Positions 51,935 through 56,231 of a DNA stretch of 64,000 bases are shown in pieces. Source of the stretch: Desulfuromonadales bacterium (GTDB lineage Bacteria > Desulfobacterota > Desulfuromonadia > Geobacterales > Pseudopelobacteraceae); contig JAENWA010000043.1 of NCBI GenBank assembly GCA_016650295.1, forward strand, positions 1-64,000, written 5' to 3'. The notes under the pieces were generated by a model that was not told where the DNA came from, made no database searches, and saw only the letters and a list, made by a program, of their open reading frames with translations. The position numbers and the translations under genes were made by a program. Every line of letters starts with the position of its first letter. Positions within the stretch are counted from its first letter, which is position 1.

Positions 51935-54900
51935 ATGCATGTAGAACGTTTTTCCCGGGATTTCAGCCGGATCATGGCCAACGGGGACAGTGCCGTTCGC
52001 GCCGCTGAACTGACCGGGTTTCTCCAATCCCACGGCTATCTTTACGGCACGCGCTCAGCAGACAACATCCTGCTGCTGCAGCCGCTTTTCCCGGTTGAAA
52101 CCCTGCACCGCATAGTCGTCAGCGCGCTTCTGACCCCGGCGCCGGATTTAGCTCTCAACACCTTTGAGCGGCTGGCAACAGTTATCCACCCGGCTGATCT
52201 GACGGAAATCAGCCACCGCAAGAAACGCCTGGCCCAGTTTTTGACGGTCTGCGGTTCGTCCCCCTTCCTGGTCAGCCTGATCTTCAAGACACCCAAGGCG
52301 TTCCACTGGCTGTTTCTGGAAAACGGCGTCGAACTCTGCCGATCAACCGACGCCATGCTGTCCGAACTGCGCAGACAGGCAGAAGGGGTGTCGGATTTCA
52401 CATCGCTGCTCAAGGTACTGCGCTATTTCAAGCGCGACGAGATCCTGCGCATTGCAACCCGCGACCTGAACGGGATGGCACCGCTGGAGGAGGTGACCGC
52501 CGAGCTCTCCAGCCTGGCGGCCGCCTCTCTGCAGGTTGCCCATGATGTCTGCCGCCAATGCCTGGTCAGCGAGCACGGTATCCCGCAGGTGCAGTCCGAA
52601 AACGGTCCGCAACCGACAGAGATGACCGTGATCGGAATGGGCAAGCTGGGCGGCAACGAGCTCAATTTTTCCTCCGATATAGACATCATCTATTTCTACG
52701 AGTCGGATAACGGCAAAACCAGCGGTATCAAGGACAGCTCCGGCGACGCGAAAGGGGTCATCTCCCTGCATGCCTTTTTCAACAAGCTGGGCGAGATGAT
52801 CAGCAAGGCCCTGTCCCTGGCGACCGAGGACGGCTTTGTGTTCCGGGTAGACGTCGGGCTGCGGCCGGAAGGCAAGTCCGGCGATATGGCGGTTTCCCTG
52901 CGTTCGGCCGAGGTCTACTACGAGTCCTGGGGCCAGTCCTGGGAGCGGACAGCCATGCTCAAGGCACGCCCTGTGGCCGGTTCCCTGGAGCTGGGTGAGC
53001 AGCTGCTGAAGATGCTGCAGCCATTCGTGTATCGCAAATACCTCGATTATAACCTGATCGAAGATATGAAACATATGAAGCAGAAGATTGATGCCTCGCT
53101 GACCCGCTCCATGGAGGGTGAGGTCAATCTCAAACTGGGGCGGGGCGGCATCCGTGAAATCGAGTTTTTCATCCAGGCCCTGCAGCTGGTGTATGCCGGC
53201 AAGAACCCGCGGCTGCGCGAGCGGAATTCACTGAAGGCGCTGGAGACACTGCTGGCGGCCCGGCTGATCAACGAAGAAGACCATCTCGGGCTTTCCGACG
53301 CCTATCGTTTTCTGCGCACGGTCGAGCACCGCATCCAGGTGGTGCAGGAGCGCCAGACCCATAACCTGCCCACCAAGGATGATGAGTTTCTGGCTCTTTC
53401 GCGGCGGAGCGGTTTCCTGCGTACCAACGGTCTTGAACGATTCCGTGAAACCCTGGAGGGGCATCGCCGGAACGTCTCGGCCATTTACGGCAACCTGTTT
53501 CACACCCGTGACGAGAAGCTGGAACAGGACGCAAACCCGGAAGTGCTCTTCTTTCTGGATCACAAGGCCGATGTGGACCTGGTCAAGGACATGCTGGCAC
53601 AACGACGCTTCGAAAACGTGGATAGGGCCTATGAAAACCTGCTGTCGCTGAGAAACGGCCCGGTGAAGGCCAATCTGACCGAGCGCAGCCGCCGGCTGCT
53701 GGAAAAGATCTCTCCCCTGCTGCTTCAGGAAATTTTCGAATCTCCCGATCCGGATATGGCGCTGACAAATCTGGAACGCTTCCTGACCATGATCGGCACC
53801 CGCTCTTCCTATTACGCACTGCTGGCCGAGAACCGCGAAACTCTCAAGCTGCTGGTATCACTGTTCGGCATGTCGGAGTTTCTCTCCAAGATTCTGATCA
53901 ATCACCCCGAGTTGCTGGACAGCCTGGTGGCCCGCAGTGATGTTTCGGCTCTGAAACCTAAGGAAACCATGGCCGCTGAACTTGCCGGCCTGCTGGAGCA
54001 GACCGACTATTTCGAGGAACAGCTCGACGTATTGCGGCGCTACCGCAACGAGGAATTCCTGCGCATCGGCCTGAACGACATCCATGGCAGGCTCGGGCAG
54101 AGCGAGATTACCACACAACTGAGCCTGCTGGGTGAAACCTGCCTGCAGGCGGCCTTCCGGCTGGCCACACAGGAGTTGAAGCGTTTCGGCCGCCCGATCT
54201 ACCGCTCAGAGAATCAGGAAAAACAGGCCAGTCTGGCGGTGATCGGCATGGGCAAACTGGGGGGCGGCGACCTCAATTACCACTCCGACCTGGACATAAT
54301 CTTCGTCTATGATCAGCAGGGCCATACGGACGGCGACAAGCAGGTCTCCAACCATGAATATTTCGCCAAACTGGCCCAGAAAGTCATCTCGATCCTGACC
54401 TTGCAGACCCGCGAAGGGTATGCCTACAAGATTGACACCCGTTTGCGCCCCTCGGGCAATGCCGGGCCGCTGGTCACATCGCTGGATTCGTTCCTTGACT
54501 ACCATCGCAAAGAGGCCCAGGTCTGGGAGCGTCAGGCCCTGACCAAGGCCCGGGTGGTGCTGGGCGACGAGCTGCTTGCCAGCCAGCTTCTTGAAGTTAT
54601 CCGCCAGACCGTCTATGGCGCCTCCATTGATGATGACGGCCGCCGGGAGATTCACCGCCTGCGCATGCGCATGGAAAACGAACTGGCCAGGGAAACCGCC
54701 GACAGCTACAACATAAAGACCGGACGGGGCGGTATGGTGGATGTGGAGTTCGCCGTGCAATACCTGCAACTCAGGTATGGCAAGGGTTACCCGGAGCTGC
54801 GCAGCACCAGCACCGTTGTGGCGCTCAAGGAGATCCGCACCCTGGGCCTTCTGAATGAAGGCGATGCCGAGACCATGCTGGCCGGTTACAAGTTCCTGCG

Positions 54901-55099
54901 CAAACTTGAAAACCGCCTGCGGATCATCCATGATTATTCCGTGAACGACCTGAGCGGTCCCAAAAACTATATCAACAAGCTTGCGCGCCGGTTGGGCTAC
55001 GACCCGAAACTGAAGAATCCGGGCGCCAGCCTGATCAGCGACTACGAGGAAACAACCGGCAGGATTCGTGATTGCTACGACAGGATTTTAGCAAGTTAG
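51935..55099 (+). CDS. glnE: Glutamine synthetase adenylyltransferase/deadenylase
   Basis: GlnE adds or removes AMP on glutamine synthetase in response to PII. The 1054-residue protein has the two tandem nucleotidyltransferase domains of the family: VIGMGKLGGNELNFSSDIDI in the N half (deadenylase) and VIGMGKLGGGDLNYHSDLDI in the C half (adenylylase). Each is followed by an LRPxGxxG motif (VGLRPEGKSGDM, TRLRPSGNAGPL) and a GGxVDVEF/GGIREIEF element. It is of usual length. mtnA ends one base upstream, and the hairpin repeat copy 2 begins right after the stop. Confidence 0.95.
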   Translation: MHVERFSRDFSRIMANGDSAVRAAELTGFLQSHGYLYGTRSADNILLLQPLFPVETLHRIVVSALLTPAPDLALNTFERLATVIHPADLTEISHRKKRLAQFLTVCGSSPFLVSLIFKTPKAFHWLFLENGVELCRSTDAMLSELRRQAEGVSDFTSLLKVLRYFKRDEILRIATRDLNGMAPLEEVTAELSSLAAASLQVAHDVCRQCLVSEHGIPQVQSENGPQPTEMTVIGMGKLGGNELNFSSDIDIIYFYESDNGKTSGIKDSSGDAKGVISLHAFFNKLGEMISKALSLATEDGFVFRVDVGLRPEGKSGDMAVSLRSAEVYYESWGQSWERTAMLKARPVAGSLELGEQLLKMLQPFVYRKYLDYNLIEDMKHMKQKIDASLTRSMEGEVNLKLGRGGIREIEFFIQALQLVYAGKNPRLRERNSLKALETLLAARLINEEDHLGLSDAYRFLRTVEHRIQVVQERQTHNLPTKDDEFLALSRRSGFLRTNGLERFRETLEGHRRNVSAIYGNLFHTRDEKLEQDANPEVLFFLDHKADVDLVKDMLAQRRFENVDRAYENLLSLRNGPVKANLTERSRRLLEKISPLLLQEIFESPDPDMALTNLERFLTMIGTRSSYYALLAENRETLKLLVSLFGMSEFLSKILINHPELLDSLVARSDVSALKPKETMAAELAGLLEQTDYFEEQLDVLRRYRNEEFLRIGLNDIHGRLGQSEITTQLSLLGETCLQAAFRLATQELKRFGRPIYRSENQEKQASLAVIGMGKLGGGDLNYHSDLDIIFVYDQQGHTDGDKQVSNHEYFAKLAQKVISILTLQTREGYAYKIDTRLRPSGNAGPLVTSLDSFLDYHRKEAQVWERQALTKARVVLGDELLASQLLEVIRQTVYGASIDDDGRREIHRLRMRMENELARETADSYNIKTGRGGMVDVEFAVQYLQLRYGKGYPELRSTSTVVALKEIRTLGLLNEGDAETMLAGYKFLRKLENRLRIIHDYSVNDLSGPKNYINKLARRLGYDPKLKNPGASLISDYEETTGRIRDCYDRILAS

Positions 55100-55100
55100 A

Positions 55101-55170
55101 AATCATTTTCTGCGGCGTTGGGCAGAGAATGATTTCGTGAACGCGCTATCCTGTTTATCAAGGGCTGGGG
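55101..55170. repeat. 70-base hairpin repeat, copy 2
   Basis: This copy matches 38481-38549 at about 50 positions. It starts directly after the glnE stop and ends eleven bases before the selenoprotein ATG. It could include the transcription end of glnE, and GGGGAGGGG at 55167-55175 would be the ribosome site of the next gene. Confidence 0.6.
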
Positions 55171-55180
55171 AGGGGACGCC

Positions 55181-55450
55181 ATGAACATCCGCAAGAAGAT
55201 TCTCGACTATGAGTACGAAGAGGTGCTGGACACCAAGACCCGTGAACTGATCCGGGTCGGCTGCGCCATTGCCGTGGGGTGTCCGACCTGACTGAAGAAG
55301 CACTTCGCGGTCGCGAAGGAAGCCGGTGCAACCCGGGCGGAACTGCGGGAGGCGATTGCCTACGGCATCATCGCTCCGTCAGGGCGGGCCAAGAATTTTG
55401 CGTTTGCCATGCTGGATGAGGTGGAGGATGGCGAACATACGGATACGTGA
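55181..55450 (+). CDS. AhpD-like selenoprotein with in-frame TGA (CPTU)
   Basis: The frame from ATG 55181 reads a carboxymuconolactone decarboxylase/AhpD-type helix set: RELIRVGCAIAVGCPT, then TGA (55289-55291), then LKKHFAVAKEAGATRAELRE, AIAYGIIAPSGRAKNF, closing at TGA 55448. The TGA falls exactly where family members have the second cysteine of the CxxC redox pair, so codon 37 is probably selenocysteine (C-P-T-U). The total is 89 residues including it. Downstream coding similarity is full and unbroken, which argues against a pseudogene. A SECIS-like hairpin follows. It would need selA-D elsewhere in the genome. Automatic annotation would miss or split this gene. Confidence 0.8.
55303..55318 (+). 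promoter_or_regulatory. Bacterial SECIS-like hairpin
   Basis: CTTCGC and GCGAAG form a six-pair stem with the loop GGTC. The loop begins 18 nucleotides after the TGA codon, the same distance as in the fdhF element of E. coli as I recall it, whose loop also begins GGTC. This is the expected binding site for SelB. Confidence 0.7.
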
Positions 55451-55526
55451 CGGAGCCGTCATCAGATATTCATTTGACTCGTACCGGGAAAAAACGTAAA
55501 TTACAGCGGATTTGTAAGGAGTTTGA

Positions 55527-56231
55527 ATGGTCCGCGCATACCTGTACCTGTCGCTGTTCATCCCCGTAACCGCCCTGTTTGCCGTGAGCGCCAGCATATG
55601 TACCCTGCTTGATGCAAGCGGCAGGTGTTACGCCTTTCATGCCCGTTTGTGGGCGCGATTCGGGCTGGCCCTAAACCATACGCCGGTGGAACTGCGCGGG
55701 GCCGAACATCTGCCGGACGGGCCGTTCATCCTGATGAGCAACCACCAGAGCAGCTTCGATATCCTGGCGCTGCTTGCCAGGGTGCCGCGCAGGACCTACT
55801 GGATCGCCAAGCAGGAGCTCTTCGATATCCCGGTCTTCGGCCCCTCCATGCGGCGCGGCGGCTATATCCCGCTGGATCGCAGCGATGGCCGCAAGGCCTT
55901 GAAAAGCATGGAAAATGCCGCCGCTATCATCCGCCGGGGGAGCAGTGTGGTCATGTTCCCGGAGGGGACCCGCACCCGTGACGGGCAGTTGCTGCCGTTC
56001 AAGCGGGGCGGCTTCATGCTGGCGGTCCGGGCAGGTGTTCCGGTCGTCCCAGCCACCATCAACGGCAGCGGCAGGGTCAACCCCAGTGGTCTGATCAGGC
56101 TGTACAGCGGCAGGATTACCCTGACCCTCCATCCGCAGATCAACATACCGGACGGGATGAAAAAGAGCGCGGCCGAGGAATGGCTTATGAATAACGTGCA
56201 GGGGGCCATCGCCTCCGGCCTGGAGGTTTGA
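55527..56231 (+). CDS. plsC: 1-acyl-glycerol-3-phosphate acyltransferase
   Basis: PlsC acylates lysophosphatidic acid to phosphatidic acid. The 234-residue protein has an N-terminal hydrophobic segment, the acyltransferase motif NHQSSFD (motif I), the KQELFDIPVFGPSMRRGGYIPLDR block (motif II) and FPEGTRTRDG (motif III), ending in a final VVPATINGSG (motif IV). AAGGAG precedes ATG 55527. It is a second PlsC activity beside the fused one at 42849. Two small membrane protein genes and rnj follow without clear breaks. Confidence 0.93.
   Translation: MVRAYLYLSLFIPVTALFAVSASICTLLDASGRCYAFHARLWARFGLALNHTPVELRGAEHLPDGPFILMSNHQSSFDILALLARVPRRTYWIAKQELFDIPVFGPSMRRGGYIPLDRSDGRKALKSMENAAAIIRRGSSVVMFPEGTRTRDGQLLPFKRGGFMLAVRAGVPVVPATINGSGRVNPSGLIRLYSGRITLTLHPQINIPDGMKKSAAEEWLMNNVQGAIASGLEV

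Follow-up and report, generated by a model that had tools for sequence, protein, structure and literature searches.

Between positions 55181 and 55450 of the window, by which we mean the entire 64,000-nucleotide stretch analyzed here, lies a short forward-strand gene for an 89-residue protein whose frame contains a TGA codon at position 37. The gene is flanked by glnE and by a gene for a PlsC-like acyltransferase, both named from their translations. The features considered below are as follows.

51935-55099: glnE, flanking the selenoprotein gene
55167-55175, + strand: likely ribosome-binding site GGGGAGGGG of the selenoprotein gene, as read from the sequence
55181-55450, + strand: GSU3128-family (seleno)protein gene, 89 residues with selenocysteine (Sec) at 37; ATG start at 55181 and TGA stop codon at 55448-55450, read from the sequence and its translation
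55244-55246, + strand: Glu22 codon, corresponding by spacing to Glu118 of the AhpD proton relay
55280-55282, + strand: Cys34 codon, first redox residue of the CxxU motif
55289-55291, + strand: in-frame TGA, the predicted selenocysteine codon 37
55301-55303, + strand: His41 codon, corresponding by spacing to His137 of AhpD
55303-55318, + strand: upper stem-loop CTTCGC-GGTC-GCGAAG, resembling a bacterial SECIS element
55527-56231: PlsC-like acyltransferase gene, on the other flank

The gene and its family

The window gene encodes a small CMD/AhpD-core protein of the NF041047 family. With Sec entered as cysteine, the translated frame matches this NCBIfam model, 'GSU3128 family (seleno)protein', at 153.3 bits against a cut-off of 110 and covers positions 1-83 of the 84 in the profile. 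Pfam PF02627 (CMD) is found at residues 11-80 with 54.5 bits, for a gathering cut-off of 23. Codon 37 falls at the second redox position of this domain, within the CxxU motif C34-P-T-U37, just where the earlier note had placed an in-frame TGA in an AhpD/carboxymuconolactone decarboxylase domain. An AlphaFold2 model, based on an alignment of 40 sequences with that of the window first, has a mean pLDDT of 93.5 and depicts a small, mostly helical CMD/AhpD core. When this model was compared with the PDB using Foldseek, the best neighbors were CMD/AhpD-like, among them 3bey (TM-score by query about 0.66) and 7y4r (RclX, 0.71), with a best E value of 1.0e-3 and no match counted at E <= 0.001. These nearest solved CMD chains, 3bey (O27018) and 7y4r, share the fold, are also recognized by sequence (E of 1.1e-8 and 3.6e-8, respectively), and differ in having a Cys aligned to the Sec place. 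A second, distant CMD-like frame, without TGA and with a C-Q-P-C motif, is present elsewhere in the same genome (L143, G000:C76:7725-7898).

The family is already known, and the description of its member here as an overlooked selenoprotein in the earlier note was wrong: curated model NF041047 covers the protein, which has been in print since 2006. In that year a 'distant AhpD homolog' was reported as a selenoprotein of both G. sulfurreducens and G. uraniumreducens (accessible part of PMC1794560), and an entry from 2026 reads 'Distant alkylhydroperoxidase (AhpD) homolog, NF041047, CxxU' and gives an example accession (accessible part of PMC13188914). The accessible part of a 2005 paper (PMC1242214) contains a 4-carboxymuconolactone-decarboxylase-like selenoprotein candidate in G. 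sulfurreducens, which we infer to be the same protein as the NF041047 family member. No paper was found under the name 'GSU3128'. The window protein is an ortholog of the Geobacter selenoprotein, from which it shows no difference of importance, and the relatives of its gene bear names such as Geobacter, Geomonas, Pelotalea and similar.

Comparison with AhpD and possible function

In the accessible text of PMC3141380, the relay residues of M. tuberculosis AhpD are given as Glu118, Cys130, Cys133 and His137, and also His132. The window protein has in common with this enzyme the two-helix core and the spacing Glu-(11)-Cys-xx-Cys/Sec-xxx-His, such that E22, C34, U37 and H41 stand in the places of Glu118, Cys130, Cys133 and His137. 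None of the four varies among the 137 distinct close sequences (a set that contains the window's own and counts identical DNA around the TGA once), and Glu22, Cys34 and His41 are each found in five of five more distant TGA-bearing sequences as well. AhpD differs in having its second Cys where the window protein has Sec, and in its chain length of 168-174 residues compared with 89. A further difference concerns the place of AhpD His132, which is occupied by Thr or Asp in 131/137 close family sequences and by His in 0/137; three of the five distant TGA relatives have His there.

We propose a mechanism in which Glu22 and His41 would activate the Sec37 selenolate. Sec37, sitting at the place of the second redox cysteine of AhpD (Cys133 in M. 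tuberculosis), would then reduce a hydroperoxide or a protein disulfide, Cys34 would resolve it as a selenenylsulfide, and some cellular thiol reductant would recycle the selenenylsulfide. By analogy with AhpD, we consider it reasonably probable that the protein acts as a disulfide reductase or thiol peroxidase, Sec being the attacking residue.

Alternatively, the protein may contain Sec and yet not be a peroxidase; it could, for example, act as a redox carrier, take part in As/Se handling, or serve as a disulfide adaptor that lacks peroxidase activity. This notion, which we regard as a serious contender but a somewhat doubtful one, is in keeping with sub-cut-off similarity to the AhpD domains of arsenite methyltransferase and MduS selenoproteins and to an arsenosugar-associated peroxidase-like protein, as well as with the replacement of AhpD His132. 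It also accords with the gene neighborhood, in which no ahpC neighbor or adjoining peroxidase operon was recognized among the flanking ORFs judged by eye. What speaks against it is the invariance of the other four relay residues, together with the statements in PMC3141380 that the conservation of His132 among AhpD proteins is not absolute and that a protein with Tyr in its place is a weak peroxidase. Gene order does not point to a substrate for a peroxidase or for any of these other roles: no conserved gene partner of that kind was found in 27 named loci or, by eye, in ten more. The glnE gene adjoins upstream in 9 of the 27 named loci, the window's acyltransferase-to-RNase J block lies within the flank in two of them (L091 and L099), on the other side and strand, and a weak acyltransferase-like match is present at the edge of one locus (L086).

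Decoding of codon 37

Our comparative evidence is drawn from 184 aligned rows, which comprise the 137 distinct close sequences, the five more distant ones (L059-L063, held outside the 137), and duplicates. Codon 37 is TGA, and never TAA or TAG, in 184/184 rows, and a Cys codon stands there in 0/184. The alignment took in 27 of 38 loci; L100-L110 (11 loci with 32-50% identity) and L064-L072 were excluded as below the family, and in these the aligned codon is Cys in 17/20 and three align poorly, so Cys at the Sec place was seen only in more distant CMD proteins. One fragment that stops short of the TGA (G049) was excluded, while a truncated sequence (L219) and one with an apparently frameshifted tail (L088) were retained in the TGA and hairpin counts. 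The five distant relatives score 66-71 bits, under the family cut-off, and three of them have His before Sec (C-S-H-U or C-A-H-U), nearer to the C-S-H-C motif of AhpD.

The coding sequence had been said to continue to the next stop, and the pattern of substitutions supports this. For 83 of the distinct close sequences, dN/dS has a median of 0.114 in codons 9-36, before the TGA (1593 usable pairs), and of 0.216 in codons 47-80, which follow the hairpin (1626 usable pairs). Furthermore, the frame is conserved past the TGA, and His41 and seven other residues after it are invariant in a 40-row alignment. Judged by these rates, the frame behind the TGA is under purifying selection; the roughly twofold higher dN/dS after the TGA than before it counts against the Sec reading. 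That the TGA is an ordinary stop, leaving a pseudogene or a 36-residue peptide, would agree with the end of the frame under table 11, with the lack of an entry for the gene in a list of ORFs of at least 50 aa, and with two genomes seemingly without Sec machinery (see below), but is highly improbable in view of the uniform TGA, the low dN/dS behind it, and the invariant residues that follow.

The genome from which the window derives (4.07 Mb, 123 contigs, 99.1% complete) holds the full Sec set, as the search for selA, selB, selC and selD suggested by the earlier note revealed. The tRNA-Sec gene (selC) scores 77.9 bits and has the anticodon tca according to ARAGORN, selB lies about 200 bases from it on the same contig, and selA and selD score 615.8 and 363.2 bits, respectively. 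Because selD (L041, G000:C4:18370-19290) itself contains one in-frame TGA, SelD of this organism is probably also a selenoprotein.

A search of 97 relatives, counting the window's own genome as one, matched the protein in 77 at E <= 0.001. The matches are strong (E at most 3.4e-35) in 67 of those 77, with a TGA inside every one, and the weaker matches among the 97 are mostly stop-free frames. A survey of the class found 136 of 277 genomes over the curated cut-off, with a TGA inside each one listed, and a phylum-wide spread of genomes gave 16 of 395 over the same cut-off. The Sec-only rows found here agree with Table 1 of PMC1794560, where the 'distant AhpD homolog' is credited with a single change from Cys to Sec and none in the reverse direction; the prefix '(seleno)' of the NCBIfam title may hint at Cys members beyond the genomes searched. 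No relative was confirmed in IMG/VR, where close relatives alone were sought, and PLSDB contains three distant carboxymuconolactone decarboxylase family proteins with 41-44% identity.

In one genus of relatives, g7, the gene and the machinery do not always coincide. Nine of its 39 genomes have neither a selA match nor a tRNA-Sec over the cut-off, and two of these nine, G038 (locus L029) and G052 (locus L026), contain the gene with its TGA and an intact hairpin. There is no selB over the cut-off in either; G052 has a selD without TGA, and in G038 no selD exceeds the cut-off. Since sel genes lie close together in several g7 genomes by their coordinates, one assembly gap could remove all of them, and the absence in G038 and G052 is perhaps explained in this way, with a recent true loss as another possibility. 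Stray contamination is less likely for L029 because it is syntenic with L037 (80.7% over 1796 bases), and it could still explain L026 because the alignment of that locus to others covers the gene alone. Across g7, the gene is present in 17/30 genomes with Sec machinery compared with 2/9 without, a difference that is not significant (Fisher p 0.13, with G653 and G654 counted as lacking the gene).

Read-through in which Trp, Cys or another standard amino acid, and no Sec, is inserted at the UGA would account for these two genomes. We nevertheless consider it very improbable, given that the window's own genome holds the full Sec set, that Cys, an easy substitution, never occurs at codon 37, and that the SECIS-like stem is conserved. 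In addition, the genes of several family members themselves end in TGA; TGA is therefore still a stop in those members, which counts against ordinary read-through.

The uniform TGA, the hairpin and the Sec genes thus support the Sec incorporation that the earlier note had inferred, and on this comparative evidence insertion of Sec at codon 37 is very likely. The sequence itself was read correctly in the earlier note, and neither of the outcomes named there as refuting its reading, a genome lacking the Sec genes or a frame not conserved after the TGA, was observed. SelB and tRNA-Sec would decode UGA 37 with the stem-loop 11 nt downstream as their guide. As a whole, an NF041047 selenoprotein with Sec at UGA 37 and the mechanism set out above is the best explanation of the locus, with a probability of roughly 0.9.

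A probable SECIS element and its apparent effect on the protein

The hairpin behind the TGA, recognized as SECIS-like in the earlier note, is made up of CTTCGC at 55303-55308, a GGTC loop at 55309-55312, and GCGAAG at 55313-55318, beginning 11 nt behind the TGA and giving a UGA-to-loop distance of 17 nt. It is like the E. coli fdhF SECIS, in which a short upper stem begins about 11 nt after the UGA and the loop contains GGU, although the stem sequence of fdhF is different. In the bacterial SECIS model described in the Fig. 2 legend of PMC13188914, the apical loop has 3-9 nt, the upper stem 4-16 bp, G is needed in the first two loop positions, the UGA-to-loop distance is 16-37 nt, and free energy is at most -7.5 kcal/mol. 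The window hairpin fits the structural part of this model as given in the legend, with its 4-nt loop GGTC, 6-bp stem and 17 nt to the loop. The outcome for free energy depends on the length folded: a 43-nt stretch passes the limit at -10.6 kcal/mol, compared with -7.1 for the bare 16-nt hairpin. Rfam searches gave nothing for 55000-55600 even at E up to 10, and no family reached gathering score anywhere in the window; this weighs neither for nor against the element.

By itself, the window hairpin is unremarkable. Against shuffles, the 43-nt stretch has a folding z of 0.41, with 124 of 200 shuffles folding equally well or better. Resampling of codons for the window peptide produced a Watson-Crick 6-bp stem at the hairpin place in 15,844 of 200,000 trials (about 8%); when a GG loop was required and any of ten offsets accepted, a 6-bp stem arose in 3,639 of 200,000. 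Unlike this single-sequence fold, the conservation of the hairpin exceeds chance across the aligned sequences. A complete six-pair stem stands at the window place in 133 of the 137 distinct close sequences (132 without G-U), the remaining four having a complete stem 3 nt further on, and the first two loop positions are G at the window place in 126/137.

The influence of the stem extends to codon usage and, it seems, to the choice of amino acids. Within the 137 close sequences, F42 is encoded by TTC in 130/130 and F73 in 70/137; A45 by GCG in 133/137 and A50 in 4/137; K46 by AAG in 131/134 and K40 in 68/137; and V44 by GTC in 106/108 and V26 in 67/130. By these comparisons, synonymous codon choice is frozen along the hairpin. 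The stem also shows paired changes, with the outer pair being C-G in 132 sequences, T-A in three and T-G in two, and the second T-A in 133, C-G in three and broken in one; these codon and pair counts represent sequences, some of them closely related, rather than events. The three C-G pairs at the second position belong to L196, L197 and L198, all of one genus, in which F42L together with K46R turns the T-A pair into C-G. The RNA stem thus seems to bend the protein, since the two substitutions jointly keep the base pair.

Genus g2 departs from this pattern. Eleven of its sequences have Leu for Val at position 44, with GG absent from the usual loop place. Seven of the 11 keep the old stem around the loops CCTG, CTTG or TCTG, which have no leading G; these seven of the 137 count against the Sec reading. 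In six of them an alternative, weaker hairpin (-6.5 kcal/mol) fits the loop rule, and in L096 there are very weak alternatives only. No old stem remains in the other four (L052, L125, L132 and L140), where a full set of six pairs, extended to eight in L052, forms 3 nt downstream around the loop GGCA. This shifted stem arises in 0.4% and 0.7% of codon-resampling trials with the two peptides found in the four species, and selB exceeds the cut-off in each of the four genomes. In a tree of the 11 sequences, whose support is weak, the four are not grouped together. The seven species with the old stem and a loop lacking the leading G are possibly an intermediate state. We tentatively suggest, at slightly less than even odds, that this family, in which we found Sec forms alone, records movement of an in-frame SECIS, in which the loop GG has moved one codon downstream in g2 and the stem bends the protein elsewhere. 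No earlier report of such a stem shift was found in the literature on SECIS in Trichlorobacter, which is no proof of novelty.

Because the family has been printed since 2006 and an NCBIfam model exists, the finding changes little by itself. What our analysis adds is comparative evidence for a redox family with the Sec codon in all 184 aligned rows, and for paired changes in an RNA element that extend to the choice of amino acids. The natural variants within the family, in which the loop lacks the leading G or the stem is displaced by one codon, allow recognition by SelB to be tested directly.
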